Source of the DNA: Vreelandella songnenensis
GTDB taxonomy: Bacteria > Pseudomonadota > Gammaproteobacteria > Pseudomonadales > Halomonadaceae
NCBI RefSeq assembly: GCF_003002925.1
Contig: NZ_PVTK01000001.1
Coordinates: forward strand, 310,001 to 374,000
Length of the DNA stretch: 64,000 bases
Direction of reading: 5' to 3'
The position numbers were made by a program, and so were the translations under genes. The notes under the pieces were generated by a model, which worked only from the letters and a program-made list of their open reading frames with translations, had not been told where the DNA came from and searched no databases. This document shows, in pieces, positions 8,254-56,480 of this stretch; positions within the stretch are counted from its first letter, which is position 1; every line of letters starts with the position of its first letter.

Positions 8254-10257
8254 ATGGCGAAATACACGGCAGGCTACACCTCCGCAGGTATTGGCAGAAT
8301 CGATACCCTTCATGCCCTGCTGCCTGAATTTAGCCAATTCTCCCGGCTGCGGCCACTGCAAAAGAGCCCCGACGCCGTGCTTGGCTGGGGGCTGAAGCCT
8401 ACCAGCCTTCGCGCCAGGCGCTACGCCAAGCGCCATGGGCTACCTTATATAGCGCTGGAAGATGGTTTTTTGCGCTCGCTCGGGCTCGGCGTCAGCGGGT
8501 ATCAGGCGCATAGCCTGGTGGTCGATCACACCGGCATTTACTACGATGCCTCGCGACCCTCGGATCTGGAAAACTGGCTCAATAGCGCCACCTTTACCGA
8601 CGATGAGCTCGCTCACGCCCAGCGCTGCATGAAACAGCTCATCCACTATCGGCTTTCCAAATACAACCACGCCCCGGACCGCCCGGTTACCGCCCCGGCC
8701 TCGGCCCGCGTGCTGGTGGTGGATCAAACCGCGGGCGATGCCTCGATCGAGTATGGCGGGGCCGGTGCGCAAAGCTTTACCGAGATGCTCGAAGCAGCGC
8801 TTTTGAACCACCCGGACGCGGAGATTCTGGTCAAGGTGCACCCGGACGTGATTGCCGGCAAGAAGCAGGGCCATCTGCTCAAGGCGCAATCTAACCCGCG
8901 CTGTCATGTGGTGAGTGAAGACATCAACCCCTGGGCGCTGTTCGATCAGGTGGATACGGTTTACGTCGTCACCAGCCAGTTGGGGTTTGAAGCCTTGCTA
9001 GCCGGCAAACAAGTGCACTGCTTTGGCCTGCCCTTCTATGCCGGCTGGGGGCTTACTCAGGATAGGCTGCCCTGCACACGCCGGCGTGTCCGGCGCACGC
9101 TTACCGAGGTATTCGCCGCAGCCTACCTGCGCTACACGCGCTACGTTAACCCTTATACTCAGGAACCCGCCACGCTTGAAGAGACCATCGCGCTGATTGC
9201 TGACCAGAAGCGCCAGCAGGAGCGCCTGCGCGGGCAGTGGCTGGCCTGCGGTTTTTCTTCCTGGAAACGCGGTTTTATTCATCGCTTTACGGGCAGCGCT
9301 GCCCACGTTACCTATCAGGCGGCGCTGCCTGCCACGCCGCCCGAACAGAGGCTTCTGGTCTGGTCCAGCCGTATCGATGCCGCGTTTGAGCAGCAGCACA
9401 AGGCGCTGATGCCGCACCTGTGGCGCATAGAGGATGGTTTTATCCGCTCGGTGGGGCTGGGGGTGGATCTTGCCCAGCCGCTGTCGCTGGTGATCGACGC
9501 GCGCGGCATCTATTACGACCCCACCCGGCCAAGCGACCTGGAAACTCTGCTCGAGCACACGCCGTTCAGCGATGACCTGCTCGAACGCGCCGCTGCCCTT
9601 CGCGAGCGTCTGGTGGCGCTCAAGCTATCCAAGTACAACGTGCGCGGCACAAGCCACGTCGAGCTGCCAAGGGACAAGCGCCTCATTTTAGTGCCCGGCC
9701 AGGTGGAAAGCGACGCGTCCATCGCCACAGGCTCGCCTGACGTGCGCACCAACAGCGCCCTGCTGCGAGCAGTGCGCCAGGCCAATCCGGAGGCGTTCAT
9801 TCTCTACAAGGCGCATCCGGACGTCATCAGCGGCGCGCGCATAGGCGCACTCGAACCCGATGCCAAACGCCTGTATGATCTGGATGCCAGCCACATGGAT
9901 ATCGCGACCTTGCTGGAACGTGTCGATGCGGTTCACACCATGAGTTCGTTGACAGGTTTCGAGGCACTTTTGCGCCACCGTCAGGTGGTTACCTACGGCA
10001 TGCCGTTCTACGCTGGCTGGGGGCTGACTCAGGATGCCATGCACTGCGAGCGCCGATCTCGCCGCCTGTCGCTTGATGCGCTGGTCGCGGGCACGCTGAT
10101 TCTCTACCCAAGCTATGTAGACCCGCAAAGCCGAAAGCTCTGTAATGCAGAAACCGTCGTCAGTCTGCTGGAACAGGCCAGAGCACAGCAACCGGCGCTG
10201 ACATGGAAGCAGCGTCTTTACCGGCTATACCGCAATTTATTGATTGGAAGACATTAA
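8254..10257 (+). CDS. kpsC: KpsC-type capsule linker Kdo transferase
   Basis: A 667-residue KpsC homologue (E. coli KpsC is about 675). It is a tandem of two related glycosyltransferase modules. Module 1 has EDGFLRSLGLG, SRPSDLENWL, KVHPDV and PFYAGWGLTQD; module 2 repeats the set as EDGFIRSVGLG, TRPSDLE, YKAHPDV and PFYAGWGLTQD. KpsC adds the alternating beta-Kdo residues of the linker that joins group 2 capsules to their lipid, at the cytoplasmic face of the inner membrane. It is the first gene of a seven-gene operon; kpsS follows directly. The 248 bases upstream are AT-rich and hold no convincing promoter or ops element. It belongs to the same family as WcbA of the Burkholderia capsule. 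Confidence 0.95.
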   Translation: MAKYTAGYTSAGIGRIDTLHALLPEFSQFSRLRPLQKSPDAVLGWGLKPTSLRARRYAKRHGLPYIALEDGFLRSLGLGVSGYQAHSLVVDHTGIYYDASRPSDLENWLNSATFTDDELAHAQRCMKQLIHYRLSKYNHAPDRPVTAPASARVLVVDQTAGDASIEYGGAGAQSFTEMLEAALLNHPDAEILVKVHPDVIAGKKQGHLLKAQSNPRCHVVSEDINPWALFDQVDTVYVVTSQLGFEALLAGKQVHCFGLPFYAGWGLTQDRLPCTRRRVRRTLTEVFAAAYLRYTRYVNPYTQEPATLEETIALIADQKRQQERLRGQWLACGFSSWKRGFIHRFTGSAAHVTYQAALPATPPEQRLLVWSSRIDAAFEQQHKALMPHLWRIEDGFIRSVGLGVDLAQPLSLVIDARGIYYDPTRPSDLETLLEHTPFSDDLLERAAALRERLVALKLSKYNVRGTSHVELPRDKRLILVPGQVESDASIATGSPDVRTNSALLRAVRQANPEAFILYKAHPDVISGARIGALEPDAKRLYDLDASHMDIATLLERVDAVHTMSSLTGFEALLRHRQVVTYGMPFYAGWGLTQDAMHCERRSRRLSLDALVAGTLILYPSYVDPQSRKLCNAETVVSLLEQARAQQPALTWKQRLYRLYRNLLIGRH

Positions 10258-10258
10258 G

Positions 10259-11494
10259 TTGAAGCAAAAGCGCGCATTCTTATTTTTACAGGGGGTCTGC
10301 TCGCCCTTTTATCAACGTTTGGCGCGTAGGCTTACCGACGACGGACACCGCGTGGTAAAGGTCAACTTCAACGCCGGCGATATTGCCTACTGGCAGCGCA
10401 CCCACAGTGAAACCCACCTGTTCCGCGAGCCGCTAAGCGAGCTGCCGGCTTATATACAGTCGCTCTGGCAGCGCTACGCCATCACCGATCAGGTGATGTT
10501 TGGCGACCGGCGTCCGATCCACCGCCCTGCCGTGGAAAATGCCCCCGCAGCCGGGGTACGTACCCACGTGTTCGAAGAGGGCTATTTTCGCCCCTTCTGG
10601 ATCACGCTGGAACGCGACGGCGTGAACGGTCATTCGCTGCTGCCCCGGGACCCCAACTGGTTTTACGATACCGGCAAGGCCTTGCCCGAACTGCCCGCGC
10701 CGGTGCGCTTTCGCTCATCGTTCAAGATCCGTGCGCTGCACGATGTGGCCTATCACCTGGCCGGGCTTGCCAACCCGCTGGTGGCACCGCGCTACCGCAA
10801 CCACGCGCCGATCAGCGCGCCGGTGGAATACGCAGGCTATATCAAGCGCTTCACGCTGCTGAAGAAGTGGAAACCCCGGGACGCCGAGCGCATCCAGGGG
10901 TTGATCGAGAGCCAAAAGCCCTACTTCATTCTGCCGCTGCAGCTCAATACCGATGCCCAGATCCGAGACCATTCGCCCTACGCCAACATGCAGGAGGTGA
11001 TGGATCACGTGATGGGCTCGTTTGCCGAACACGCTCCGAGTGACGCGCTGCTGTGCATCAAGAACCACCCGCTGGACATGGGCCTGGTGAACTACCCGGA
11101 TATCATCGAGCAACTATCCAGATTCTATGGGCTGGAAGGACGTATCGTGTACCTTGAATCCGGCAATCTGGACGTGCTGATCAAACATGCTGAAGGCGTG
11201 GTCACGGTGAACAGCACCGTCGGGTTCGTATCACTCGAAAAGCAGTGCCCTACCTTTGCGCTAAGCGACCCGATCTATAACCTGGCCGGTCTTACCTGCC
11301 AGGAGAGCCTGGATGAGTTCTGGCACCAGCCGCCTCCGCCCAGCCAGCAGCTGTTTGACTACTTTCGCAAGACGGTGATGCACACCGTACAGGTCAACGG
11401 CGGCTTCTACTGCCAGCCAAGCATGGACCTGGCGGTCAACAACGCCGCCCATATACTGGAAGCCTGCCCATCGCCGCTGGAGAAACTGCTTTGA
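10259..11494 (+). CDS. kpsS: KpsS-type capsule linker Kdo transferase
   Basis: A roughly 411-residue KpsS homologue (E. coli about 390). Recognisable segments are FLFLQGVCSPFYQRLA, VNFNAGD, FGDRRPIH, FEEGYFRPFWITLE and IKNHPLDMG, then VVTVNSTVGFVSL, which closely track KpsS. KpsS adds the first beta-Kdo to phosphatidylglycerol, and KpsC extends it. No ATG is available at the start. I prefer the TTG at 10259, two bases after the kpsC stop, with GGAAG eight bases upstream; an in-frame TTG at 10244, overlapping kpsC, is the alternative. The gene ends in a TTGA overlap with the SDR gene. It corresponds to WcbO in the Burkholderia locus. Confidence 0.93.
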   Translation: MKQKRAFLFLQGVCSPFYQRLARRLTDDGHRVVKVNFNAGDIAYWQRTHSETHLFREPLSELPAYIQSLWQRYAITDQVMFGDRRPIHRPAVENAPAAGVRTHVFEEGYFRPFWITLERDGVNGHSLLPRDPNWFYDTGKALPELPAPVRFRSSFKIRALHDVAYHLAGLANPLVAPRYRNHAPISAPVEYAGYIKRFTLLKKWKPRDAERIQGLIESQKPYFILPLQLNTDAQIRDHSPYANMQEVMDHVMGSFAEHAPSDALLCIKNHPLDMGLVNYPDIIEQLSRFYGLEGRIVYLESGNLDVLIKHAEGVVTVNSTVGFVSLEKQCPTFALSDPIYNLAGLTCQESLDEFWHQPPPPSQQLFDYFRKTVMHTVQVNGGFYCQPSMDLAVNNAAHILEACPSPLEKLL

Positions 11495-12300
11495 GCACTG
11501 CTGAACATCATGCCCTGCACCAACGCTGCGTACTGATTACCGGCGCGACCGGCGCCATTGGCGGGGCGCTTGCCAAGGCCTACGCGGGCAAGCATACGCA
11601 TCTGATTCTTCACGGGCGCCAGCAGGCCGCACTCGCTACCCTGGCCGATGCCTGCCGCACGCTGGGCGCGCGAGTCACCACCTCCTCGGTCAATCTGACC
11701 GATGAAGCGGCGCTGACGCAGTGGCTGCAAGCGCTTTGCGCCACGCACACGCCAGATATCGTGATTGCCAACGCGGGGAAAAACACCCACCCCGAAGCGC
11801 CTGGGCAGCTGGAACCCTGGGCAGACGTGCAGGCGCTTCTGGATATCAACCTGAAGACGCCCATCGCCATGGCCCAGCACTTGGTACCCGCCATGCAGGC
11901 CCGCGGCAGCGGCCAACTGGTGTTCATCAGCTCACTGGCGGGATGGCACGGCCTGCCGACTACCCCCACCTACAGCGCCAGCAAGGCGGGCATCAAGGCC
12001 TACGGCGAGGGCCTGCGCGGCCTGCTGGGGCCATCCGGCATTGGCGTTACCGTGGTAATGCCGGGCTACGTCACATCACCCATGTGCAACGCCATGCCGG
12101 GTCCGAAGCCCTTTGAGTGGCCGCCTGAGCGCGCCGCCAGGGTCATCAAGCGCGGCATCGATGCCAACAAGGCGCGCATCAGCTTTCCGTTCCCCCTGAA
12201 TTTCGGCACCTGGTGGCTGGCGGTATTGCCAGCCTCTATCTCCCAGTGGTTGATCAAGCGTCTGGGGTTCGACCATACCGATGATCTGGGAGGCGCCTGA
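11491..12300 (+). CDS. Short-chain dehydrogenase/reductase (WcbP-like)
   Basis: A 269-residue classical SDR. The nucleotide-binding TGATGAIGG is at the N-terminus, NAGKN follows near residue 90, the catalytic Ser lies in FISSLAG, and YSASK supplies Tyr and Lys. Its only usable start is TTG at 11491, overlapping the kpsS stop (TTGA). In the PKS operon its likely job is to reduce a keto group. The 3-keto group left by the alpha-oxoamine synthase is the obvious candidate, giving an amino alcohol as 3-ketosphinganine reductase does. It could instead act on the nascent lipid in another way; the context argument is strong, the substrate unproven. The C-terminus is hydrophobic and amphipathic, consistent with membrane association. 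Confidence 0.88.
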   Translation: MSTAEHHALHQRCVLITGATGAIGGALAKAYAGKHTHLILHGRQQAALATLADACRTLGARVTTSSVNLTDEAALTQWLQALCATHTPDIVIANAGKNTHPEAPGQLEPWADVQALLDINLKTPIAMAQHLVPAMQARGSGQLVFISSLAGWHGLPTTPTYSASKAGIKAYGEGLRGLLGPSGIGVTVVMPGYVTSPMCNAMPGPKPFEWPPERAARVIKRGIDANKARISFPFPLNFGTWWLAVLPASISQWLIKRLGFDHTDDLGGA

Positions 12301-12301
12301 C

Positions 12302-13978
12302 ATGACCGCCTCGTTAGTAACACAGCTGTTCTGGCCGCTGCTGGTCGGGCTTTTGGCAACGCTTGCCGGTGAAGCGCTGCTCAGCCCGCGCCCGCAGCCC
12401 TTGTGGCGGCGCGGGCTGGCGGCCAATAGCGTGCACCTGGGCAGCTGGCTTTTGCTGTTTGGCCTGTTCGTTCTGGTGCTCACGCGCCCCTGGTTTGCGG
12501 TCATCTTCATTCTTTCGCTGCAGCTGGTAGTCGTGCAGTCCAGCAACACCAAATCGAGCACTCTGAACGAGCCCTTCATCTGCCACGATTTCGAGTACTT
12601 CTGGGACGCCATTCTGCACCCGCGCCTGTATGTGCCCTTTTTCGGCACGGGCCTGGCCATTGCCGCCATCGCCGCCGGGGCAGCCGCCATCGGCGGTTTT
12701 CTGTATTGGGAGCCTTCGCTGGTGAGCCAGTGGGGCGGGCCTGCCTTCCTGCTGCATGCGGGCCTGCTTGCCCTATTGGGCGCGGTACTGGTAGCGCTTG
12801 GCTGGCGGGCACTGGCACCGATTACGCTGAACCCGGCAGATGACATGGACCGGCTGGGTCTGTATGCAAGCCTCTGGGCCTACGGCGTGGCGCTGATGCG
12901 CTCCGCCCCGCCAGCGCCGGAGCAGTCGCCTTTTCATCAGCTGTCCGAGAAGCTTGCGGCCCGCGGCCAGCGGCCTTCTGATGAGGCGCTGGCCAACGTG
13001 GTGCTGGTGCAGAGCGAGTCGTTCTTCGACCCGCGCCCCTGGTATCCGGATATCGCCGGCGGCCTGCTTGCGAATTTTGACGCCACGCGCGCCGAGGCCC
13101 TTCAGCACGGCGAGCTAAGCGTGCCCGCCTGGGGTGCCAACACCGTGCGTACCGAATGCGCGGTGCTGACAGGCCTTGCGCCCAGCGCCTGGGGCCCGCG
13201 TCAGTTCAACCCCTACCGCACGCTGTCGCGCCACCCGCTGCCAAGCCTTGCCAGCACCTTCAAGGCCGCTGGCTACCGCACGGTGTGCATTCACCCCTAC
13301 CCCGCCAGCTTCTATATGCGCCACAAGGTGATCCCGCAGCTTGGGTTCGAGACGTTTATCGATATCGAAAGCTTCGAGAGCAGCGACCGGGAGGGGCAGT
13401 ATATCGGCGACATGGCCGTGGCAAGAAAAGTTGGACGCCTGCTCGAGGATAGTGATAATAGGCCGCTTTTCGTGTTCGTGATCACCATGGAGAATCACGG
13501 GCCGTTGCATCTTGAAGCGCCGGTTCAGGAAAGCCTCGCGGCAGCGCTGCCCACGGCCCCCTGGCCGCTGCCCACACATTTACGTGATTTGGCCGTATAC
13601 TTGCGCCACCTGGGCGAGGCCGACAAGATGCTCGAAAACCTCAAAAGTGCCTTGAAAGAGGCAAAACGGCCGGGGCTGCTGGGCTGGTACGGTGATCACG
13701 TGCCCATACTGCCCGCAGCGTACCAGTATTTTTCACCGCCTGCCGGCACTACTCCCTACATGTTATGGTCAACACATACTCGCCAGCGCGTGCAGGGACA
13801 AGCCGAAGGCCAGGTAGCGGCACACACGCCACCGGACGACCTATCGTCCGGAAAGGTGCCGCTGCGTGCCCTGGCCGCGAGCGACCTTGGCGTCCAGCTA
13901 TTTGAACAAGCATTTGGACACGATATAAGTAGCGATGTGATCAAGGCAGAACCAGAACTCAGGAGCAAGAATGACTAA
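12302..13978 (+). CDS. Membrane-bound LTA synthase/sulfatase-fold protein (WcbQ-like)
   Basis: A 558-residue protein. Four to five transmembrane helices lie within about residues 1-180, followed by an extracytoplasmic alkaline-phosphatase-fold domain of the LTA synthase/phosphoethanolamine transferase superfamily. Family signs are QSESFFDPR (metal ligand E), NTVRTECAVLTG with the Thr nucleophile, ITMENHGP, and WYGDHVP. These enzymes transfer phosphoglycerol or phosphoethanolamine headgroups from phospholipids. Here it may place a phosphate-linked headgroup on the lipid made by the PKS, or on the linker. The start at 12302 has GGGAGG eight bases upstream; an in-frame ATG at 12281 would overlap the SDR gene. 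It overlaps the PKS gene by eight bases. Confidence 0.85.
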   Translation: MTASLVTQLFWPLLVGLLATLAGEALLSPRPQPLWRRGLAANSVHLGSWLLLFGLFVLVLTRPWFAVIFILSLQLVVVQSSNTKSSTLNEPFICHDFEYFWDAILHPRLYVPFFGTGLAIAAIAAGAAAIGGFLYWEPSLVSQWGGPAFLLHAGLLALLGAVLVALGWRALAPITLNPADDMDRLGLYASLWAYGVALMRSAPPAPEQSPFHQLSEKLAARGQRPSDEALANVVLVQSESFFDPRPWYPDIAGGLLANFDATRAEALQHGELSVPAWGANTVRTECAVLTGLAPSAWGPRQFNPYRTLSRHPLPSLASTFKAAGYRTVCIHPYPASFYMRHKVIPQLGFETFIDIESFESSDREGQYIGDMAVARKVGRLLEDSDNRPLFVFVITMENHGPLHLEAPVQESLAAALPTAPWPLPTHLRDLAVYLRHLGEADKMLENLKSALKEAKRPGLLGWYGDHVPILPAAYQYFSPPAGTTPYMLWSTHTRQRVQGQAEGQVAAHTPPDDLSSGKVPLRALAASDLGVQLFEQAFGHDISSDVIKAEPELRSKND

Positions 13979-16900
13979 ACGCGTTGCCATTATCGGCGCC
14001 GCCCATCGTTTTCCAGGAACAACCCCTGAAACGTTCTGGCAGGACCTGCAAGCCGAAAAGGATTTAGTCACCCAAGTGGCCCCCGACCGCTGGAGCCATG
14101 ACGCTTTCTGGCACCCGGACAAACGTCACCCCGGCACCAGCGTGACCTTTGCCGCCGGTAGCCTGGGTGATATCAGCGGCTTTGATGCCGAGTTCTTTGG
14201 TATTTCCCCTCGTGAGGCAGCCAACATGGACCCCCAGCAGCGCATGCTGCTGGAACTTGCCTGGGAAACCATGGAGAGCGCGGGCATCAAGCCCGCCAGC
14301 CTGCGTGGCAGCCAGTGCGGCGTCTTCCTGGGCGTGGCAAGCCTTGATTACTCCTATCGCATGGCCGACGACATGGCGGCCATCGACGCCTCGACCGCTA
14401 CCGGCAACACCTCGAGCATCGCGTCGAACCGCCTCTCCTACGTATTTGATCTTCACGGCCCCAGCATGTCGCTGGATACCGCCTGCTCCTCTTCCATGGT
14501 GGCGTTTCACCAGGCCTGTCAGTCGATCCGCAGCGGCGAAACCAGCATGGCGCTGGCCGGCGGCATCAGCCTGCACCTGCACCCTTATGGGTTCATCATC
14601 TTCTCCAAGGCCAGCATGCTCTCGCCCACCGGCCGCTGCCAGGTGTTCGATGAAGCGGGCAACGGCTACGTGCGCTCTGAAGGGGCCGGGCTGTTCCTGC
14701 TCAAGGATTACGACCAGGCAGTAGCCGATGGCGACAATATTCTGGCCGTCGTGGCAGGCTCGGCCGTCAATACCGACGGGCACAAATCCGGCCTGACGGT
14801 GCCCAACCCCACCGCGCAGATCGACCTGATGCGCCGCGCCTACGAACAGGCCGGCATCACGCCGGACGAAATCGACTACCTGGAAGCCCACGGCACCGGC
14901 ACCGCGGTCGGCGACCCGATTGAAACCCGCGCCATCGGTGAAGCGCTGGGCAAGTACCGTCACTCGCCGCTGCTGATTGGCTCGGTCAAGAGCAACGTGG
15001 GCCACCTGGAAACCGCCTCCGGCGTGGCCGGGCTTGCCAAGGCGCTGTACAGCCTGCAGCACCGTGAAGTGCCCGCCACCATCGGTATCCGCAAGCTGAA
15101 CCCGCGCATCAAGTTCGATGAGTGGAACCTTGAGGTAGTCACCAAGGCGCAGCCGCTGAAAAAGCAGGGCCGCCTGGTCATCGGTATCAACTCCTTCGGC
15201 TTTGGTGGAGCCAACGCGCACGTCATTCTGGAAAGCGCGCCGGAAAAAACCGCACAGCCCGCTGTCACACCGGCTCATGCCCTGCCGGTACGCCTGAGTG
15301 CCAAGAGCCCGGAGGCTCTGGCCGCAAGCGCTCGCACCTTGGCCGCGTTCCTGAACGAGAGCGATAGCGCCTACTACGATATCGCCCACACGCTTTATCA
15401 TCGCCGCGAGCAGCACGGTTTCGGCGCGCTCTGCTTTGCCGAAACCCCGCAGGAAGCCGCCACGGTGCTTGCGCAGTTTGCCGAAGGCGAAAGCCCGGCA
15501 GGCGTGGTGACGCTCGAGCGGCTGAACAACGCCCGCGGGCCGGTGTTCGTATACGACGGCAACGGCTGCCAATGGGAAACCATGGGCCACGACCTGCTCG
15601 ACACCGCCCCGGTATTCAGCGATGCCATCGACCGCGTGGATCGCTTGTTTCAGCAGTATGGCGACTTTTCACTGCGCGACGAACTGGCTGGCCGAAACGG
15701 CGAACACCGCTTCGAGCTGACCGAAATCGCCCAGCCGGCGCTGTTTGCCCTGCAGGTAGCGCTCACCGAGTGGTTGAAAGCCCAGGGCATTACGCCCTCG
15801 GCGGTATTTGGCCACAGCGTGGGTGAAGTGGCTGCCGCCTGGGCGGCGGGCAGCCTAAGCCTGGAAGACGCGGTGAAGGTGATCTACTACCGCAGCTACT
15901 ATCAGGGCAAGACCCGCGGCCTGGGTGAGATGGCCGCCGTGGCCATGAGCGCCGAGGACATCGAACCCTGGCTTGCCCGGCCCGAATTTGCCAAGGTGTG
16001 TCTGGCGGGCGTCAACAGCCCCAAAGGCATTACCCTGGCCGGCGAACGCGAACAGCTGGCCGCTCTTGAAGCAGCCTTGAGCGACCAGAGCATTTTCGCC
16101 AAGCGACTGCCGCTGGATTACGCCTTCCACAGCCCGGCCATGGACAGCATCCAGGCCGGCGTCATCGAAGCGCTGGCAGGCATTACCCCTCGCCCGACCC
16201 AGCTACCCTACTACTCGACGGTTACCGGTCAGATCAGCCAGGGCACCGAGCTTGGCGCCACCTACTGGTGGAAGAACATTCGCGAACCGGTATTGTTCGA
16301 CCACGCCGCCACGGCACTGATCGAGCAGGGCTACAACGTGTTTGTCGAGGTCGGTGCGCACCCCATTCTGCGCCGCTACCTCAACGAGTCGCTGCGCCAG
16401 CAGGAGCGCACGGGGCTCGTCATCGGCACGCTAGAGCGCCACAAGCCGGGCCTTGAATACCTGAACAAGAGCGTCAGCCAACTGCTGCTGAGCGGGCTTG
16501 CGCTGAATGTGCAGCATCTTTTCCCCGTGGAAGGCCAGCACGTGCTGCTGCCGCGCTACGCCTGGCAGCATACTCACCACTGGGTCAACAGCACTCAGGA
16601 CAGCCAGGGCCTGCTTTCGCGCTACTACCAGCACCCGCTGCTGGGCTACCCGCTTGCCCAGCAGGAACACACCTGGGAAAGCCAGCTGGATACCAAGCGC
16701 GAGCCCTGGCTTGCCGACCACGTGGTGGGCGAAGGCGCCGTATTCCCGGGCGCCGGGTTTGTCGAGCTCACGCTGGCCGCCGCACTTGCCCAGCACGATA
16801 CCCCGCTTCTGGATATCGAAGAGCTGGAAATTCGCGCGCCGCTGTTGCTGGACGGCCCCAACGGCCGCGCCATGCGCCTGACCCTCGACCCGGATGACGG

Positions 16901-19900
16901 GCGCATGGACATCCACTCCCGCGAGCCGGCCAACGGCAGTGAGTGGCAGCTCAACGCCGTGGCCCGCACCATGCGCGAAAGCCGGGGCTTTTTGCTCGAA
17001 CGCCAGGCGCCGACACTGCCCAAGCGGGTACCGGACTACACCCTCGAAGACCATCTGCAGATGGCCGAGCGGATCGGCCTGCACTACGGCCCGGCCTTCC
17101 AGGCGATCAGCCACGGCTGGATCGAGGAAGACGCCGTCATCGGCGAGATCAAGCTTTCCAGCGACGTCGAGGCCCAGCTTGCTTCTCTGCACGTGCACCC
17201 CGGCATTCTGGACAGCGCCTTCCAGATGTTCATTCCGCTGCTGGCCCAGCACAGCGAGTTCGCCGCCCAGTTGGCGTTCGTACCCGTACGCGTAGGCCGT
17301 ATTCAGGTGAACACTCAGGCCGGCACGCCCGTGCTGGCCCGCGCGGTCATGGGCAAGCGGGCACCGCACTCCTTCACCGCCGACTTTGAGCTGTTCGACG
17401 CCGAAGGCCGCGCCGTGGCCGTGCTCAGCCAGACCCGCTTCAAGGCGATTCGCCTGAACCGCGCCCATCACCAGCAGTTCAGCTACCTGGATGTCGAGCT
17501 TACCCCGGCACCGCTGACCGCCGCGGCCATGACATTGCCTGCCGAGTCGTTGACTCACCTGGCAGGCCTCGGTGAACGCTACGCGGCTCACACCGGCCAG
17601 CGCTACGCCCAGGAAATTGCCCCGCTGCTGGATAGCCTGAGCGAAGCGTTCAGCCAGCAGGGCCTGGCGGTGGAGGGCAGCGACGACCAGTTGGCACCGG
17701 AAACCATCTGGCAGCTGCTGGTGCAGGATTATCCGGACTACTTTGTCCCCATTCACCTGGTCGGGCGCCTGGGTATGCACCGCCAGGCGCTGCAGGGCGG
17801 CACCACGCCCCTCGATGAGCTGGGCATTTCCGCCGAGCATCTCGCCCGGCTGAACCGCGTGCTGATCGGCGAACCCGGCTGGCAACTGCTGGCGGGCGAA
17901 CTCGGCGAGCTTGCACGCGCAGCCCTTGGGGAGCTTGCAAGTGGCGAGCGCCTTGCGCTGCTCGAGGCCGGCCCGTGTGCGCCGGCATTGGGCCAGCGTT
18001 TGCTTGAAGAGCTGGCACACTCCGCGCCAAACGCGCCTTACCACTACCGGGCGATGACCACCCACGACAGCGCCCGCTACCAGGCCGAGCAGCTTCAGGA
18101 GCGCTTCCCGCTCATGGACGTGCAGCCGCTGGACGGTGCGCCTCAAGCACTGGCGGGCACTGAAAAGGCCCAGCTGGCGTTCGTGAGTGCGGACGTTACC
18201 CAGCCGGCCCTGACGCGTCAGCTGATCGAGGCCCTGCCCGGCCAGCTCGCCCCCGGCGCGCAGGTCATGGTGGTCGCCATTGCCCCCAGCCGCTGGCTGG
18301 ACGATGTGCTGGCCACCCCGGGTATCGACCAAACCGCCCTGGAGCCCGCCATTTTAAGCGAGTGGCTAAGCGCTCAGGGCCTGATGGTGTCTGCCCCCAT
18401 CGAGCTTGAAGAGGGCATGACCGGTGCCTACCTGCTGCACGCACAGATGCCTGCCGCCACGGGCGCTGCCGAGCATGGCCCGGCGCCGTATCAGCTGATC
18501 GTCACAGACGCGGCTACCGATGCGCTGGCCCAGCGCCTGGCAAACGCGCTTATCCAGCGCCAGGCCAAGGTGGTCATCGAGCAGGGCGAACAGGCGCCGG
18601 CAACACTCCTGGACAGGGCGCTGGCTGAATTTGGCGATACCGCCGACGTACTTAACGTGATCGACCTGCGCGGCCTGAGTGGCGACAGTATCGAGGCACA
18701 GACGCAGCGCTGTCACCGCGCCCAGCAGTGGAGCCTGGCCCTTGAAGCCAAGGGGCTGAATGCCGCCACGCTCTGGCTGACCACCCAGGGAGTCAGCCCG
18801 GTATGGCAAACCGGCGAGACACCGCTGGCGCAATTCGACGATGCCGCCTTCTGGGGCTTCGGTCGCTCGCTTGCCAACGAGGCCGTCGGCCATACCGCAA
18901 GCCTGCTGGATATTCCTGGTGACGTAAGCGACGCCGCGCTCAACGCCTGGGCGGATTCGCTGACCTTCGCGGATCGCGAGAACGAAATAGTGATAACCGC
19001 AACCGGCGAGCGCTACGCCACGCGCCTGCGCACGCTTCCCGCCCCGGCACCGGCGAAAACTGCCCAGGCTCCGGCGCGCCAGGCGATGACGCTCGGCTTT
19101 GCTCTGCCCGGCCAGCTGCGCCAGCTGCAGTGGCGCCCGCGCGAGCTTGCCGACCTGAAAGCCGACGACGTGGAAATTCGCGTCAAGGCTACCGGGCTCA
19201 ACTTCCGCGACGTGATGTACACCCTCGGCCTGCTTTCCGATGAAGCCATCGAGAACGGCTTTGCCGGGCCGACGCTGGGCCTCGAGTTCTCCGGCGAAGT
19301 CGTCGCCGTGGGCGAGAACGTGACCCACGTTGCGCCCGGCCAGGCGGTAGTCGGGTTTGGCCCGGCCAGCTTCAGCGACCGCCTGATGGCCAGCCAGCAC
19401 GCGGTGGCCCCGCTGCCGAACGGCGTCAGCTACGCCGCGGCCGCCACCATCCCGACTACCTTCTTCACCGTGTACTACGCGCTGAAACACCTGGCGCGCC
19501 TGGAACCCGGCGAGAAAGTGCTGATTCACGGCGCGGCTGGCGGTGTGGGTATTGCCGCCCTGCAGATCGCCAAGTGGATGGGCGCCGAGATCTACGCCAC
19601 GGTGGGCTCTGAAGAGAAGCGCGACTTCCTGCGCCTGATGGGCATCGAGCGGCTTTACGACTCCCGCTCGCTCACCTTCGCCGAAGAGATTCTGGAAGAT
19701 ACCCAGGGCGAAGGGGTGGATGTCGTGCTCAACTCGCTGGCCGGTGAAGCCATCAACCAGAACCTGCGCGCGCTGCGGCCGTTCGGGCGCTTCCTGGAGC
19801 TTGGCAAGCGCGACTTCTATGAAAATACCCATATCGGCCTGCGCCCGTTCCGTAACAACCTGAGCTACTTCGGCATCGACTCCGACCAGCTGATGAAGGT

Positions 19901-21308
19901 GCAGCCTGCCCTGACCCAGCGCCTGTTCGGCGAGATGATGGCGCTGTTCAACGACGGCACGCTCAGCCCGCTGCCGTTCACCGCCTTCAGCCACAGCCAG
20001 GTGATCGACGCCTTCCGCTACATGCAGCAGGCGCGTCAGATCGGCAAGGTGGTAGTGACCTATGAGCAGCCCATTGCCCCGCCCAAGAACGATGCGTTGG
20101 GTAGTGAAACGCTGACGCTGGACAGCAGAGCAAGCTATCTGGTCACCGGTGGCCTGGGGGGCTTCGGCCTCAAGACGGCCCAGTGGCTGGTGAGCAAAGG
20201 CGCCCGCCAGCTGGTGCTGCTCAGCCGCAGCGGCCCGTCAAGCGACGAAGCCCAGGCGGCCATGGCGGAATTCGAGGCGCAAGGCGTCGAGGTACTCGCC
20301 GCGGCCTGCGATATTACCGACCGCCCCGCACTTGCCGATGTGCTGGCTCGGGTCAAGAGCGAGCTTGGCCCACTGCGCGGTATCGTGCACGCCGCCACGG
20401 TGATCGACGACGGCCTGATTCGCAACCTGGACGCTGAGCGTATCCAAAAGGTGCTGGCCCCCAAGATCGAGGGCGCTCGCCACCTGGACGCCCTGACGCG
20501 CGACGGGCAGCTGGACTTCTTTGTCCTCTACTCGTCGGCTACCACGCTGTTCGGCAATCCCGGCCAGGCCAACTATGTAGCCGCCAACCACTGGCTGGAA
20601 GCGTTTGCCGCCAGCCGGCGCGCTGCAGGGCTTGCCGCTACCTGCGTACGCTGGGGTGCCATCGAGGATGTCGGCTTCCTGGCCCGCAACACCCGCACCC
20701 GCGATGCCCTGCAGGAGCGCCTGGGCGGTTCGGCGCTGCGCTCGGATGACGCGCTCAAGGTGCTCGAGCAGATGCTGGTCACCTCTGGCCCGAGCCTGGG
20801 TGTGCTGGAGCTTGAGTGGGGCGCGCTTGCGCGCTTTTTGCCCACCGCCGAGGCGCCGCGCTTCAACGAGATTGCCCGGGCAAGCGACGACGACGGCAGC
20901 GCCGATTCCGACGACGATATCAGCGCCTTGCTGGCGGATCTTTCGCCAGAGGAGCTGCACACCACGGTGACCGAGCTGCTGCGCGCCGAACTTGCCAGCA
21001 TCCTGCTGATCGAAGAGGAGAAGATCGACGTCAATCGCTCGGTCTACGACATGGGCTTTGATTCGCTGATGGGCGTCGAGCTGATGACGGCGATCGAAAA
21101 CCGTCTGGGCGTTCAAGTGCCGGTCATGGTGCTGAGCGAAGCCTCGACGCTGAACAAGCTTGCCGGGGTGCTGATTCAGAAGCTTCACCAGCATGACGAT
21201 GATGTTGATGAAGCTCCGCAGGATGCGTTAGCCTCCCTGGCCGCGCGCCACGGCGCGGACGCCCTTACTGAAACAGCCGTCACTTCATCGACCACCGAGA
21301 CGCCATGA
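13971..21308 (+). CDS. Fully reducing type I polyketide synthase (WcbR-like)
   Basis: A 2445-residue single-module synthase. Domains in order: ketosynthase (about 1-425; Cys172 in DTACSSS, His307 in EAHGTGT, His345 in NVGHLE); acyltransferase (about 520-830; Ser616 in GHSVGE, and YAFHS, which suggests malonyl-CoA); dehydratase (about 885-1170; His917 in DHVVGEGAVFPG); a 500-residue region where a methyltransferase would sit but with a degraded SAM motif (LLEAGPCAP); enoylreductase (about 1700-2020; GAAGGVG); ketoreductase (about 2050-2290; TGGLGGFG, Tyr2202); and carrier protein (Ser2365 in GFDSLMG). There is no thioesterase. A complete reducing set acting iteratively should make a saturated acyl chain, and release by the adjoining alpha-oxoamine synthase is the natural reading. 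The ATG at 13971 has AGGAG five bases upstream. It overlaps both neighbours. Confidence 0.95.
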   Translation: MTKRVAIIGAAHRFPGTTPETFWQDLQAEKDLVTQVAPDRWSHDAFWHPDKRHPGTSVTFAAGSLGDISGFDAEFFGISPREAANMDPQQRMLLELAWETMESAGIKPASLRGSQCGVFLGVASLDYSYRMADDMAAIDASTATGNTSSIASNRLSYVFDLHGPSMSLDTACSSSMVAFHQACQSIRSGETSMALAGGISLHLHPYGFIIFSKASMLSPTGRCQVFDEAGNGYVRSEGAGLFLLKDYDQAVADGDNILAVVAGSAVNTDGHKSGLTVPNPTAQIDLMRRAYEQAGITPDEIDYLEAHGTGTAVGDPIETRAIGEALGKYRHSPLLIGSVKSNVGHLETASGVAGLAKALYSLQHREVPATIGIRKLNPRIKFDEWNLEVVTKAQPLKKQGRLVIGINSFGFGGANAHVILESAPEKTAQPAVTPAHALPVRLSAKSPEALAASARTLAAFLNESDSAYYDIAHTLYHRREQHGFGALCFAETPQEAATVLAQFAEGESPAGVVTLERLNNARGPVFVYDGNGCQWETMGHDLLDTAPVFSDAIDRVDRLFQQYGDFSLRDELAGRNGEHRFELTEIAQPALFALQVALTEWLKAQGITPSAVFGHSVGEVAAAWAAGSLSLEDAVKVIYYRSYYQGKTRGLGEMAAVAMSAEDIEPWLARPEFAKVCLAGVNSPKGITLAGEREQLAALEAALSDQSIFAKRLPLDYAFHSPAMDSIQAGVIEALAGITPRPTQLPYYSTVTGQISQGTELGATYWWKNIREPVLFDHAATALIEQGYNVFVEVGAHPILRRYLNESLRQQERTGLVIGTLERHKPGLEYLNKSVSQLLLSGLALNVQHLFPVEGQHVLLPRYAWQHTHHWVNSTQDSQGLLSRYYQHPLLGYPLAQQEHTWESQLDTKREPWLADHVVGEGAVFPGAGFVELTLAAALAQHDTPLLDIEELEIRAPLLLDGPNGRAMRLTLDPDDGRMDIHSREPANGSEWQLNAVARTMRESRGFLLERQAPTLPKRVPDYTLEDHLQMAERIGLHYGPAFQAISHGWIEEDAVIGEIKLSSDVEAQLASLHVHPGILDSAFQMFIPLLAQHSEFAAQLAFVPVRVGRIQVNTQAGTPVLARAVMGKRAPHSFTADFELFDAEGRAVAVLSQTRFKAIRLNRAHHQQFSYLDVELTPAPLTAAAMTLPAESLTHLAGLGERYAAHTGQRYAQEIAPLLDSLSEAFSQQGLAVEGSDDQLAPETIWQLLVQDYPDYFVPIHLVGRLGMHRQALQGGTTPLDELGISAEHLARLNRVLIGEPGWQLLAGELGELARAALGELASGERLALLEAGPCAPALGQRLLEELAHSAPNAPYHYRAMTTHDSARYQAEQLQERFPLMDVQPLDGAPQALAGTEKAQLAFVSADVTQPALTRQLIEALPGQLAPGAQVMVVAIAPSRWLDDVLATPGIDQTALEPAILSEWLSAQGLMVSAPIELEEGMTGAYLLHAQMPAATGAAEHGPAPYQLIVTDAATDALAQRLANALIQRQAKVVIEQGEQAPATLLDRALAEFGDTADVLNVIDLRGLSGDSIEAQTQRCHRAQQWSLALEAKGLNAATLWLTTQGVSPVWQTGETPLAQFDDAAFWGFGRSLANEAVGHTASLLDIPGDVSDAALNAWADSLTFADRENEIVITATGERYATRLRTLPAPAPAKTAQAPARQAMTLGFALPGQLRQLQWRPRELADLKADDVEIRVKATGLNFRDVMYTLGLLSDEAIENGFAGPTLGLEFSGEVVAVGENVTHVAPGQAVVGFGPASFSDRLMASQHAVAPLPNGVSYAAAATIPTTFFTVYYALKHLARLEPGEKVLIHGAAGGVGIAALQIAKWMGAEIYATVGSEEKRDFLRLMGIERLYDSRSLTFAEEILEDTQGEGVDVVLNSLAGEAINQNLRALRPFGRFLELGKRDFYENTHIGLRPFRNNLSYFGIDSDQLMKVQPALTQRLFGEMMALFNDGTLSPLPFTAFSHSQVIDAFRYMQQARQIGKVVVTYEQPIAPPKNDALGSETLTLDSRASYLVTGGLGGFGLKTAQWLVSKGARQLVLLSRSGPSSDEAQAAMAEFEAQGVEVLAAACDITDRPALADVLARVKSELGPLRGIVHAATVIDDGLIRNLDAERIQKVLAPKIEGARHLDALTRDGQLDFFVLYSSATTLFGNPGQANYVAANHWLEAFAASRRAAGLAATCVRWGAIEDVGFLARNTRTRDALQERLGGSALRSDDALKVLEQMLVTSGPSLGVLELEWGALARFLPTAEAPRFNEIARASDDDGSADSDDDISALLADLSPEELHTTVTELLRAELASILLIEEEKIDVNRSVYDMGFDSLMGVELMTAIENRLGVQVPVMVLSEASTLNKLAGVLIQKLHQHDDDVDEAPQDALASLAARHGADALTETAVTSSTTETP

Positions 21309-22642
21309 CTGCCCATCGCTCTGATCTAAAACGGCAGTTGCTGGAGCAGGCACGCAAGCGCACCGCGCCGCGTGCCGCTTCTCCCAACGGCAGCGCCAGC
21401 GCTGCCCATGCAACTGCAACGCCTGTAGCCGAGCGCTTTACACGCTTCGACGCCCACCCGGGCTATCAGCAGCTGGCCATGCTGCGCCAGGGCGCCGAGC
21501 AGTTGGGGCTCAAGGACCCCTTCTTCAAGGTACACGAAGGCATCGCCGGCGCTACCAGCGTGATTCAGGGAACCTCCTGTATCAACTTTGCAAGCTACAA
21601 CTACCTGGGTTACTCCGGTGACCCCCGGGTGACCCAGGCCGCCGCTGATGCATTGACCCGCTACGGTACGTCGGTCTCGGCCAGCCGGGTGGTTTCCGGC
21701 GAGCGGCCGATTCACCATGAGCTGGAGCAGGCCATTGCCAAGGCGTACCAGGCCGATGACGCCGTGGCGTTTGTCAGTGGCCATGCCACCAACGTCTCTA
21801 CCCTGGGTTACCTGTTAGGCCCCAAGGATCTGGTGCTGCACGACGAGTACATTCACAACAGCTCCCTGGTAGGCGCACAGCTTTCCGGCGCCAAGCGCAT
21901 GTCGTTTACCCATAACGACCCGGAAGCGCTGGATGCCCTGCTGAGCCGCCATCGTCACCAGTTCGAGCGCGTGATCGTGGTGATCGAAGGGCTCTACAGC
22001 ATGGATGGCGACATCCCGGACCTGCCGCGCTTCATCGAGCTCAAGAAGCGCCATCAGGTATGGCTGATGGTGGATGAGGCGCACTCTTTCGGCGTCATGG
22101 GCGCCACGGGCCTGGGCCTGCACGAGCACTTTGCCATCGACCCGACAGAGGTGGATATCTGGATGGGCACCATGAGCAAGACGCTCTCCGGGTGCGGCGG
22201 CTATATTGCCGGCAACAAGGCGCTGGTCGAGACCCTGCGCTACTTTGCGCCAGGCTTTCTCTATAGTGTGGGCATGCCTGCCCAGGTAGCGGCGCCGTCC
22301 ATCAAGGTGCTCGAGCTGATGCAGCAGGAACCCGAGCGGGTGGAAAACCTCCACACCATTTCGCGTTACTTCCTGCAGCAGGCCAAGGCCCACGGCATGG
22401 ATACCGGGCACAGCATCGGGGCCGCCGTCGTGCCCATCATCGTGGGCAGTTCGCCGCTGGCCGCCCACCTCTCGCATACGCTGCTTGAGCAGTACCATAT
22501 CAACGTGCAGCCCATTCTCCACCCGGCGGTGCCTGAAAAAAGTGCCCGGCTGCGCTTTTTCCTCGCCCATGATCACACTCAGGCCCATATCGACCAGACG
22601 CTGGATGCGCTTGCCACGCTGCTTGCCCAAGCGCAAACCTGA
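21305..22642 (+). CDS. Alpha-oxoamine synthase (serine palmitoyltransferase/KBL/AONS family)
   Basis: A 445-residue fold-type I PLP enzyme. Visible are the SYNYLGYSG segment, SGHATNV, HDEYIHNSS, the DEAHSFGVMG motif with the cofactor-binding Asp and His, and TMSKTLSGCGGY, where Lys292 forms the aldimine. A 50-residue Ala/Arg-rich N-terminal extension precedes the usual start and may dock with the PKS carrier domain. Family members join an amino acid to an acyl thioester with loss of CO2 (AONS, KBL, serine palmitoyltransferase, CqsA). Next to a PKS lacking a thioesterase, it should off-load the polyketide as a long-chain alpha-amino ketone, a sphingoid-like base. The ATG overlaps the PKS stop (ATGA). 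It corresponds to WcbT. Confidence 0.92.
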   Translation: MTAHRSDLKRQLLEQARKRTAPRAASPNGSASAAHATATPVAERFTRFDAHPGYQQLAMLRQGAEQLGLKDPFFKVHEGIAGATSVIQGTSCINFASYNYLGYSGDPRVTQAAADALTRYGTSVSASRVVSGERPIHHELEQAIAKAYQADDAVAFVSGHATNVSTLGYLLGPKDLVLHDEYIHNSSLVGAQLSGAKRMSFTHNDPEALDALLSRHRHQFERVIVVIEGLYSMDGDIPDLPRFIELKKRHQVWLMVDEAHSFGVMGATGLGLHEHFAIDPTEVDIWMGTMSKTLSGCGGYIAGNKALVETLRYFAPGFLYSVGMPAQVAAPSIKVLELMQQEPERVENLHTISRYFLQQAKAHGMDTGHSIGAAVVPIIVGSSPLAAHLSHTLLEQYHINVQPILHPAVPEKSARLRFFLAHDHTQAHIDQTLDALATLLAQAQT

Positions 22643-22646
22643 CACC

Positions 22647-23225
22647 ATGCAGCAACGTCGCTCCCCTCTTGACGGTTCCGCCCTGAACGACTCGGCATCC
22701 GGTGATGCCGAGGAAGACGCTCAGGGCGCTCTGCCTAACTGGTACGTTATCCAGTGCAAGGGGGGCGAATCGTTTCGCGCCGCGGAGCACCTGACCAACC
22801 AGGGCTACGAAGTGTTTCACCCGGTGCTGGATGTCAAACGCCGCCGCCAGGGTAAACCGGTCATGGTGACCGAGCCGCTGTTTCCCTACTACCTGTTTAT
22901 TCGCCTTGATCAGATCGTCAGCAACTGGCGGCCTATCCGCTCTACCCGCGGCGTCCTGCGCCTGCTCACCTTTGGCAACACGCCCATCGCCGTGCCCAGT
23001 GCCCTGGTGGAAGCCCTGCGCGCTCAGCCCCATCGCCAGGAAGGCATACACACCTACTTCAGCGCCGGGGAAAAGGTCACCATCACCGGCGGCCCTTTCA
23101 AGGACCTGGAAGCCATCTTCCAGCGCTGCAAGGGCGAAGAGCGCGCCATCGTGCTGCTGAACGTGCTGCAGCGGCCACAGCACTTAAACATGCCATTGGA
23201 TCAGTTGCGCAAAGGCGACGCGTAA
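22647..23225 (+). CDS. rfaH: RfaH-type NusG paralogue, transcription antiterminator
   Basis: A 192-residue protein: a 30-residue acidic leader, then the NGN domain (NWYVIQCKGGESFRAAEHL, PLFPYYLFIRLD) and a C-terminal KOW region (FSAGEKVTITGGPFKDLEAIF). RfaH binds the ops element in the paused complex and makes RNA polymerase pass over terminators and polar signals in long operons, often for capsule and LPS. It starts at 22647, four bases after the alpha-oxoamine synthase stop, as the last gene of the operon. Being encoded inside a surface-lipid operon is unusual for RfaH. Its likely target is the capsule export operon, whose leader carries a perfect ops sequence (56480-56469). I see no ops upstream of its own operon. 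Confidence 0.92.
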   Translation: MQQRRSPLDGSALNDSASGDAEEDAQGALPNWYVIQCKGGESFRAAEHLTNQGYEVFHPVLDVKRRRQGKPVMVTEPLFPYYLFIRLDQIVSNWRPIRSTRGVLRLLTFGNTPIAVPSALVEALRAQPHRQEGIHTYFSAGEKVTITGGPFKDLEAIFQRCKGEERAIVLLNVLQRPQHLNMPLDQLRKGDA

Positions 23226-39007: not shown

Positions 39008-39955
39008 TCAGCTTAATTTTCCAGCATCTTGAAGCTTAAGAACTCCAGACAATGCGCTATCATCACTAACCACAAGCAACGATGTCACATTAGCTTTAAA
39101 CATGATGTTTTCTGCATCTGCGAACATCTCGCTTTCATTCACGGTTAACGGGTTTGGCGTCATGATATTCGCAGCCGTCAATCCATCGAAACTATTATGG
39201 TTGAAAAGAGCGCGGCGCAAATCGCCATCGGTAATGACGCCTTTAATGGTACCCCGATCGACCACGACGGCAATGCCCAAACCTACTTGGGTAATGGTCA
39301 TGATAACTTCTTTCATATTGTCGTTGGGCGCACAGATTGGCAGCTCTGAATGCATTACATCCTTGACTCGCGTCAAGAGGCGTTTGCCAAGGCTACCGCC
39401 AGGATGGAACACAGCGAAATCCTGGGGCTTGAAATCACGGCGTTCAATCAAAGCTACGGCCAACGCATCTCCCATCGCCAACGTTACAGTGGTCGAAGTG
39501 GTGGGCGCCAAGTTGTTAGGACACGCTTCACGTTCAACGGAAACGTCCAACACCAGATCGCAATTGCGGCCGAGGGTGGAATCAGGATTACCTACCATGG
39601 CAATCGTTTTTACACCAAAATGACGAAGCGAAGGAATCAAACGGATGACTTCTTCCGTTTCACCACTGTATGAAATCAGAATAACGACATCTGTCGCCGT
39701 AAACATACCCAAATCGCCATGGTATGCCTCAGCAGGATGAACGGAAAAACTGGGCGTACCGGTAGAGGCAAGCGTGGCCGCTATTTTGTTACCAATAATG
39801 CCCGATTTCCCCATGCCTGAAACAACTACGCGTCCTGTTGTTTCAAGAATCATGTTCACAGCGTTATCGAAAGCACCATCCAGTCGGTTGCCCGTTGCTT
39901 CCAATGCCTGAGCCTGAACTTTAAAAACCTCTTTCCCGACACTGATACTCGACAT
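39008..39955 (-). CDS. kpsF: Arabinose-5-phosphate isomerase (KpsF/KdsD)
   Basis: A 315-residue protein with an N-terminal SIS sugar-isomerase domain (VVVSGMGKSGIIGNKIAAT, TGTPSFSVHPAEAYHGDLG, ISYSGETEEV, all broken landmarks of KpsF) and a C-terminal pair of CBS domains (DVMHSELPI, GVITDGDLRRAL, NIMTPNPLTV). It makes D-arabinose 5-phosphate, the first committed substrate of Kdo. AAGGAAT seven bases before ATG 39955 sets the start. Last gene of the capsule operon, after the kdsB-kdsC fusion. Confidence 0.95.
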   Translation of the reverse strand: MSSISVGKEVFKVQAQALEATGNRLDGAFDNAVNMILETTGRVVVSGMGKSGIIGNKIAATLASTGTPSFSVHPAEAYHGDLGMFTATDVVILISYSGETEEVIRLIPSLRHFGVKTIAMVGNPDSTLGRNCDLVLDVSVEREACPNNLAPTTSTTVTLAMGDALAVALIERRDFKPQDFAVFHPGGSLGKRLLTRVKDVMHSELPICAPNDNMKEVIMTITQVGLGIAVVVDRGTIKGVITDGDLRRALFNHNSFDGLTAANIMTPNPLTVNESEMFADAENIMFKANVTSLLVVSDDSALSGVLKLQDAGKLS

Positions 39956-39980
39956 GCGATTACATTCCTTTTCTTTCACG

Positions 39981-41273: not shown

Positions 41274-41277
41274 CTCC

Positions 41278-42887
<1,610 letters not shown>

Positions 42888-50787: not shown

Positions 50788-50820
50788 TGGTTTTTTCGAT
50801 GACGGGTAAAGGATAAGCAC

Positions 50821-56468: not shown

Positions 56469-56480
56469 CACGCTACCGCC
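56469..56480 (-). promoter_or_regulatory. ops element, RfaH recruitment site
   Basis: The minus strand reads GGCGGTAGCGTG, a perfect copy of the 12-base E. coli ops core, 20 bases before the first gene of the kps operon. RfaH binds ops in the non-template strand of a paused polymerase. It matches the RfaH-type gene at 22647. A candidate -10 (TACAAT, minus strand 56570-56565) lies upstream but its -35 is poor. Confidence 0.88.

Follow-up and report, generated by a model that had tools for sequence, protein, structure and literature searches.

A capsule operon of Vreelandella songnenensis with a probable role in the synthesis and priming of a sphingoid lipid anchor

The window examined here, a stretch of 64,000 nucleotides from the 3.69 Mb genome of Vreelandella songnenensis, carries on its plus strand a run of genes that encode, in this order, a KpsC-type and a KpsS-type transferase of 3-deoxy-D-manno-octulosonic acid (Kdo), a short-chain dehydrogenase/reductase (SDR), a relative of the lipoteichoic acid synthase LtaS, a polyketide synthase (PKS) and an alpha-oxoamine synthase (AOS), followed by a gene of the RfaH type (Table 1). 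Since each of the six frames from KpsC to AOS overlaps the next one, by 4-20 bases in a list of open reading frames whose start codons are mechanical assignments, the six genes likely form a single predicted operon. A second capsule block on the opposite strand, at 39-56 kb, contributes Kdo-supply genes and KpsD/M/E/T-like export genes, and the set for an ABC-transporter capsule (group 2/3) is complete in the window with KpsC, KpsS, the Kdo genes, KpsMT, KpsD and KpsE, the last being recognized by position and homologues. An earlier note on this DNA had read the operon as a route to a sphingoid-like lipid and tied it to capsule anchoring, and all the genes it named are found in place on the plus strand. 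We consider it rather probable that the operon provides an ABC-transporter capsule of the group 2/3 type with a sphingoid lipid anchor, which it would both synthesize and prime, and its product is most likely a sphingolipid-type lipid with a glycerol-phosphate head. Support from this analysis is provided by gene content, conserved active sites, the predicted fold of the headgroup enzyme, the grouping of KpsS proteins and co-occurrence; the sphingolipid chemistry is well supported, while the covalent capsule anchor is a feature that we infer.

Table 1. Features of the window, with the basis of each assignment
Feature	Position	Strand	Basis
KpsC-type Kdo transferase, two Capsule_synth stretches, 667 aa	8254..10257	+	Pfam PF05159 315 bits
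KpsS-type Kdo transferase, 416 aa, member of the sphingoid-associated KpsS group	10244..11494	+	Pfam PF05159 279 bits, NCBIfam KpsS 273 bits, trees
SDR, proposed 3-ketosphinganine reductase (SgaC/WcbP/RkpH place)	11491..12300	+	Pfam adh_short, conserved residues
LtaS/GacH-like phosphoglycerol transferase, 'Sulfatase', five membrane helices and catalytic domain (WcbQ/RkpI place)	12281..13978	+	PDB sequence matches, predicted fold
Iterative fully reducing type I PKS, 2445 aa, KS-AT-DH-(degenerate MT)-ER-KR-ACP (SgaA/WcbR/RkpA place)	13971..21308	+	
Degenerate methyltransferase-like stretch within the PKS	17919..18155	+	DisA 6cca, weak, E 0.009
AOS, proposed serine-using and chain-releasing (SgaB/WcbT/RkpG place)	21305..22642	+	
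RfaH/NusG-type antiterminator	about 22647..23225 (presumed start, first ATG past the AOS stop)	+	NCBIfam RfaH 166 bits, above cut-off
CMP-Kdo supply: SIS/CBS isomerase (KdsD/KpsF-like), KdsB-KdsC-like fusion, KdsA-like	39008..42156	-	Pfam
KpsT-like ABC ATPase	49978..50820	-	Pfam ABC_tran
KpsE-like protein	52280-53377	-	No Pfam match; named from position and homologues adjoining kpsM/kpsT elsewhere
KpsM-like permease	53381-54190	-	Pfam ABC2_membrane
KpsD-like export protein	54315..56096	-	Pfam Poly_export, SLBB

The operon was compared with the best 80 loci from a scan of named genomes (more exist; about one third are Halomonadaceae), in all of which a PKS match lies on the same strand within 829 bases of the AOS frame, although in L051 the match is no more than a fragment of 73 bits at the end of a contig. 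Residues were counted in alignments of rows above a score and length cut, which comprised the window and 79 of the 80 loci for the AOS, the window and the 47 of 80 loci with a qualifying LtaS-like gene, 42 rows for the SDR and 69 for the PKS. According to Pfam, the PKS is organized as KS-AT-DH-ER-KR-ACP and the scan found no thioesterase domain, which bears out the earlier description of a synthase with every reducing domain and no thioesterase; in the 72 PKS frames from related loci that are full, 66-106 residues lie beyond the ACP serine. The catalytic positions checked, namely KS Cys/His/His, AT Ser, DH His/Asp, ER glycines, KR Ser/Tyr and ACP Ser, are the same in 69/69 aligned PKSs. An active C-methyltransferase was rejected, the stretch between DH and ER being degenerate and its S-adenosylmethionine-binding motif variable over the 69 PKSs.

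Directly behind the PKS, and overlapping its frame by four bases as had been noted before, lies the AOS, which would be responsible for chain release because the PKS is devoid of a thioesterase. Its residues H184, D257, K292 and R417, among them the lysine binding pyridoxal phosphate (PLP), the stacking His and the Asp, are present in 80/80 aligned rows, and the solved structures closest to it are serine palmitoyltransferases (SPTs; 3a2b/8guh). The canonical bacterial SPT equivalogs of NCBIfam are all missed (278, 265 and 195 bits vs cut-offs of 640, 500 and 670), and the top NCBIfam model, bioF, scores 320 bits, under its cut-off of 426. An enzyme of biotin synthesis (AONS), KBL or ALAS was rejected, since the protein stays under every cut-off shown and its closest solved relatives are SPTs. 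It is 96% identical to the AOS of Vreelandella aquamarina MB598, while identity to the homologues in the Pseudomonas locus L056 amounts to 58% for the AOS and 51% for the PKS.

The SDR and the LtaS-like enzyme precede the PKS, as the earlier note had stated. Residues S147, S148, Y161 and K165 of the SDR are kept in 42/42 aligned rows, and E246, T288, R347, H406, D472 and H473 of the LtaS-like protein in 48/48. PDB sequence matches of the latter are GacH, LtaP and LtaS only (four distinct sequences, E up to 0.1), and its AlphaFold model (mean confidence, pLDDT, 88.2) resembles GacH most (Z 27.8), then LtaP (23.8) and LtaS (23.5; together 23.8-22.5), with sulfatases from 21.6 and EptA/MCR from 20.2 further down. 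The predicted structure shows the five membrane helices, catalytic domain, Thr nucleophile and Glu/Asp/His metal ligands of the LtaS type; at 20 bits vs a cut-off of 970 for the NCBIfam LtaS equivalog, the protein is a relative of LtaS and not its equivalog. A plain sulfatase or phosphoethanolamine transferase was set aside in view of the sequence matches and of GacH as the clearly best fold. The LtaS score of the model nearly ties with those of sulfatases, and the predicted fold would leave the donor unsettled. Since the sequence matches are confined to GacH, LtaP and LtaS and the fold agrees best with GacH, glycerol phosphate is the likeliest headgroup, and the phosphate headgroup suggested earlier is retained in this more precise form. 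Fold, position of the Thr nucleophile and metal residues are common to LtaS, LtaP, GacH and the window enzyme, whereas the acceptors of the former are glycolipid, lipoteichoic acid or rhamnan and the proposed acceptor of the latter is sphinganine.

The arrangement of an iterative KS-AT-DH-ER-KR-ACP PKS lacking a thioesterase, followed by an AOS, is that of the sga cluster of Pseudomonas fluorescens MYb115, whose SgaA, SgaB and SgaC are the PKS, AOS and SDR homologues in common with the window and whose product is known. SgaA and SgaB yield C24, C26 and C28 sphinganines, and SgaB (PfSgaB) is nearly exclusive for serine, according to a 2025 paper (PMC12134224). Building of the chain by the PKS and its release by the AOS were shown there by genes, by the enzyme with acyl-CoA surrogates and by labelling; extracts contain free sphinganines as well as species 154 Da heavier, which from their mass are most likely phosphoglycerol sphingolipids (PMC12134224). 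The route proposed in the earlier note, from PKS chain and AOS release to ketone reduction and a phosphate headgroup, is strongly supported by this homology together with the conserved active sites. The sga genes were published as a secondary-metabolite cluster, the word stem 'capsul' being absent from the main text and the headgroup enzyme not named in the parts covered (PMC12134224), whereas the window module is situated amid capsule genes.

Orthologues of SgaA can be recognized among the Pseudomonas loci by the sgaA primers: mismatches to the start primer (22 positions) number 0 in L056, 2 in L053 and L086 and 4 in L081 and L088, vs 6 in the next locus, and those to the end primer (23 positions) 2-4 in the same loci vs 7 in the next. 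The sgaB end primer matched none of the loci (at least 6 mismatches), and SgaB orthology rests on the position beside SgaA. L056 and L081 carry KpsC, the LtaS-like gene, SDR and KpsS beside PKS-AOS. On a plasmid of Pseudomonas sp. TMW 2.1634, used for its annotated gene order only, as three sga primers fit poorly there (7-9 mismatches), the order is PKS, AOS, dioxygenase, KpsC, GNAT, LTA synthase family, SDR, KpsS and KpsC; the four genes between AOS and SDR agree with the MYb115 locus tags (PKS RS19805, AOS RS19800, SDR RS19775). Given the Kps genes of L056 and L081 and of this plasmid, whose gene order fits the tags, the sga cluster is placed by inference in a capsule locus, MYb115 itself being represented by its published tags. 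In L053 (Pseudomonas paraversuta), PKS-AOS is accompanied by KpsC and a short LtaS-like match, with no KpsS match in the genome, and the locus looks like a decayed capsule locus. On L282, a Pseudomonas plasmid typed as mobilizable, KpsC, KpsS and genes of Kdo supply accompany the lipid module, and products of a phytanoyl-CoA dioxygenase-family gene and a GNAT gene found there could modify the lipid.

PKS, AOS, SDR, a sulfatase-fold protein and KpsS stand together in the capsule locus of the window, as in the lipid-carrier module of the rkp-1 and wcb type, for which papers of 1993 and 1997 reportedly proposed the synthesis of a lipid carrier. In rkp-1 (rkpA, G, H, I, J) of Sinorhizobium meliloti, the same five kinds of genes lie in a row and have long been proposed to supply the K-antigen with a specific lipid, as carrier or anchor (PMC4881576, PMC3557214); the order differs from that of the window (PKS, AOS, SDR, LtaS-like, KpsS and KpsF in strain Ak57), SDR and LtaS are diverged (97 and 193 bits), and the passages covered do not identify the lipid. 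A double mutant of S. fredii in exoA and rkpH produces neither exopolysaccharide nor K-antigen capsular polysaccharide (PMC8227245). The wcb operon (wcbPQRT plus KpsS) of Burkholderia and Cobetia holds the same kinds of genes as the window, Cobetia marina also belonging to the Halomonadaceae. For Cobetia, wcbPQRT is described as the operon of a lipid carrier, serving capsular polysaccharide lipid biosynthesis, 'probably fatty acids' (PMC11766843). In the passages covered, wcb function is called little known and no sphingolipid is assigned. The match to the Burkholderia wcb genes claimed by the earlier note holds for BPSL2787 and BPSL2789-2792 of B. pseudomallei, annotated as AOS, PKS, sulfatase, SDR and KpsS; BPSL2788, an LpxC-type deacetylase between PKS and AOS, is absent from the window (PMC4275268). 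An LpxC-like deacetylase in this place is found in Burkholderia-type clusters, among them L198 (9442-10380), which comes from G583, a genome with the lipid module and no KpsS match.

Escherichia coli is not known to carry a PKS-AOS module. Its K5 priming of the group 2/3 type shares KpsS/KpsC, Kdo supply and KpsMTED-type export genes with the window, and its KpsS attaches Kdo to the glycerol of (lyso-)phosphatidylglycerol (PG), while KpsC extends it (PMC7694667); E. coli is not among the rows of the KpsS tree described below. In another system, sphingolipids were speculated to anchor a surface polysaccharide of Porphyromonas gingivalis (PMC5126122). As regards novelty, the module, the lipid-carrier idea and PKS-made sphingolipids are already in print, and what appears to be new is the joining of the module to the sphingolipid work and the split of KpsS by phylogeny, since in the open PMC literature, covered in part, no paper was found that links the lipid-carrier module to PKS-made sphingolipids or reports such a split.

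The KpsS of the window reaches the Capsule_synth gathering score and falls short of the cut-off of 600 for the NCBIfam KpsS equivalog (NF050054). Its affiliation was inspected in a quick tree without bootstrap and with midpoint root, comprising 93 rows (58 genomes of a phylum sample and 10 of a class sample, two of them shared, 25 named loci, S. meliloti Ak57 and Pseudomonas TMW), from which second paralogues and L174, a repeat of the G562 copy, were excluded. Each of the 44 rows that derive from loci or genomes with PKS-AOS falls within a single group of 47 KpsS proteins (SH-aLRT 96), which is a clade provided that the root is placed elsewhere, and the PKS-AOS label changes 3 times on the tree vs about 31 times in shuffles; a previous tree with 65 rows agreed with this division. 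The three group rows lacking PKS-AOS (G562, G586 and G576) come from genomes with an SPT of 595-608 bits, above the NCBIfam cut-off of 500, and in each an LtaS-like gene adjoins KpsS or lies one gene away. With SPT counted by a single NCBIfam model (NF047599) in 35 of the 398 sampled genomes, its presence in three of three is expected by chance at about 0.0007, two of the three being of one family. In the phylum sample, a sphingoid base can be made by either route in 17/17 group genomes vs 1/41 other KpsS genomes, and an LtaS-like gene is present in 14/17 vs 1/41. This grouping is new evidence, and it suggests that the KpsS lineage in question works with sphingoid lipids. Among ten open reading frames scanned for a replacement headgroup enzyme, eight of them from group loci lacking an LtaS-like gene, nothing convincing was found; in three such loci (L186, L196 and L047) two KpsS paralogues are adjacent.

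Co-occurrence points in the same direction. KpsS is found in 68 of 76 genomes of named loci (26 in the flanks and 42/50 in further genomes, the remaining four of the 80 loci being outside the count), and in 66/80 named loci the flanking sequence retrieved contains a match to Kps or LtaS-like genes. In the phylum sample of 398 genomes, 58 have KpsS and 19 an AOS of at least 350 bits, a cut chosen after the lists were seen; KpsS occurs in 14/19 genomes with such an AOS and in 44/379 of the remainder (Fisher 3e-9, ignoring relatedness), and a looser AOS cut (E 1e-60) raises the number of AOS genomes to 47, of which 17 have KpsS. In the class sample of 274 genomes, KpsS occurs in 10 overall and in 4/5 with a PKS-coupled AOS, a count that by post hoc choice leaves aside G004, G075 (locus not inspected) and G092. 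AOS relatives away from a PKS were seen in two short loci, L012 and L016, and in L012 the AOS shares a single frame with a part that, judged by eye, is AMP-ligase/ACP-like. The tie to the capsule drawn in the earlier note thus stands as a link by KpsS phylogeny and co-occurrence, the covalent anchor being the conjectural part of it.

In the proposed pathway, the iterative PKS would build a long saturated acyl chain on its own ACP, which the PLP-dependent AOS would free by decarboxylative condensation with serine to give 3-ketosphinganine. Judged by homology, the SDR would reduce the latter to sphinganine. Subsequently, the LtaS/GacH-like membrane enzyme may transfer glycerol phosphate from PG onto a sphinganine hydroxyl, and the resulting phosphoglycerol sphingoid, with its one chain, would resemble lyso-PG. 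Owing to its free glycerol-phosphate end and single long chain, as in lyso-PG, phosphoglycerol-sphinganine would be a natural substitute acceptor; KpsS would place the first beta-Kdo on its glycerol and KpsC would extend the Kdo linker, on which the polymer would grow prior to export by KpsMTED. The last two enzymatic steps together would require the lipid to flip from the periplasmic to the cytoplasmic leaflet.

Several observations weigh against such an anchor. For this organism, lipid and capsule are predictions from genes, and for S. meliloti the title of a poly-Kdo paper names a 'phospholipid anchor', which may agree or conflict with a sphingoid anchor, a phosphoglycerol sphingoid being formally a phospholipid. 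In fourteen of the 80 named loci, some on short contigs, the flanking sequence retrieved shows no match to Kps or LtaS-like genes; Pseudomonas L086 and L088, whose genomes have KpsS elsewhere, are among these fourteen, and 8/50 named genomes lack a KpsS match. The same is true of five of the 19 AOS genomes in the phylum sample (G583, G282, G430, G581 and G307), for which reason the lipid may have uses beyond the capsule; G583 even retains SDR-LtaS-PKS-AOS, and in G282 KpsE/M/T-like genes adjoin PKS-AOS. Since the rows are related, Fisher values overstate their independence. Moreover, G365, outside the KpsS group, also has an SPT, three genomes with PKS-AOS and KpsS (G428, G522 and G525) have no LtaS-like match genome-wide, and a search for an acceptor signature in KpsS found none, two alignment columns only separating the group from the rest. 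Finally, the LtaS-like enzyme is expected to act in the periplasm, by its full-length fold match to EptA and in keeping with the periplasmic LtaS fold of related proteins, and KpsS in the cytoplasm, with loop charges of the former being ambiguous on topology.

Alternatively, the LtaS/GacH-like enzyme may place glycerol phosphate on the capsule chain during export, a role that suits a periplasmic site, with KpsS priming the sphingoid base directly or via another headgroup. GacH, the closest fold, transfers glycerol phosphate to a streptococcal polysaccharide (work cited by PMC11766843), Cobetia marina combines a wcb operon with a capsule repeat containing mannose-6-phosphate-glycerol, and the authors, citing the same GacH work, ascribe such a transfer to WcbQ (PMC11766843), and the three KpsS-group genomes devoid of an LtaS-like match would fit as well. 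We nevertheless regard chain decoration as unlikely, since the distribution of the LtaS-like gene goes with the KpsS group and many lineages have the gene next to SDR and KpsS, Sinorhizobium has it although its K-antigens are strain-specific, and phosphoglycerol sphingolipids are reported from the Pseudomonas producer (PMC12134224). Rather improbable, too, is a capsule on ordinary (lyso-)PG, as used by KpsS/KpsC of E. coli (PMC7694667), with the PKS-AOS lipid as an envelope sphingolipid in its own right, inherited together with the capsule genes. The AOS genomes lacking KpsS, the missing acceptor signature and the occurrence of free and phosphoglycerol-bearing sphinganines in Pseudomonas extracts (PMC12134224) are in line with it; on the other hand, a single KpsS group goes along with sphingoid supply, including the cases in which an SPT stands in for PKS-AOS, and the exoA rkpH mutant of S. 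fredii (PMC8227245) is counted against an anchor of ordinary PG. An AOS that takes another amino acid or a short acyl-CoA, in a cluster for an unrelated secondary metabolite, could be argued from the inclusion of AONS, KBL and ALAS in the family and from bioF as its best model; with SPTs as the best solved relatives, a nearly serine-exclusive homologue in PfSgaB (PMC12134224) and Kps or LtaS-like matches beside most named loci, it appears very improbable. A phosphoglycerol sphingoid anchor primed by KpsS remains the reading we prefer.

As for the remainder of the window, the KdsB-KdsC-like fusion at 39981-41273 (-) unites cytidylyltransferase and HAD phosphatase domains within a single protein, a 1136-aa protein with Capsule_synth stretches at 46550-49960 (-) lies inside a region of low G+C content (42-50 kb, 34-38%), and a beta-CASP/RMMBL metallo-hydrolase of the RNA-processing type at 50821-52209 (-) separates the kpsT-like from the kpsE-like gene. 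A search for RfaH ops sites by their consensus gave one exact match (56469-56480, -), near the start of the second block, the first block having an RfaH-like gene at its end; with up to one mismatch there are 5 sites vs 4.9 expected, no more than by chance.

Taken together, KpsS lineages might mark two chemical classes of ABC-transporter capsules, a proposal whose chances we see as evenly balanced: one anchored on (lyso-)PG and a widespread one anchored on sphingolipid, in which the KpsS acceptor would be the phosphoglycerol-sphinganine of PKS, AOS, SDR and LtaS-like enzyme or a sphingoid supplied by SPT. The joining of rkp-1/wcb to the demonstrated SgaAB chemistry leads to a defined and testable structure at the capsule terminus, and the old question of what the rkp-1/wcb lipid genes do in rhizobia, pseudomonads and Burkholderia would gain an answer. 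If the proposal is true, PKS-made bacterial sphingolipids would be given a role and a candidate headgroup enzyme, the sphingolipids of Pseudomonas, regarded as secondary metabolites, would turn out to be capsule-anchor precursors, and many bacteria, including plant symbionts and pathogens, would hang their capsules on a eukaryote-like lipid.

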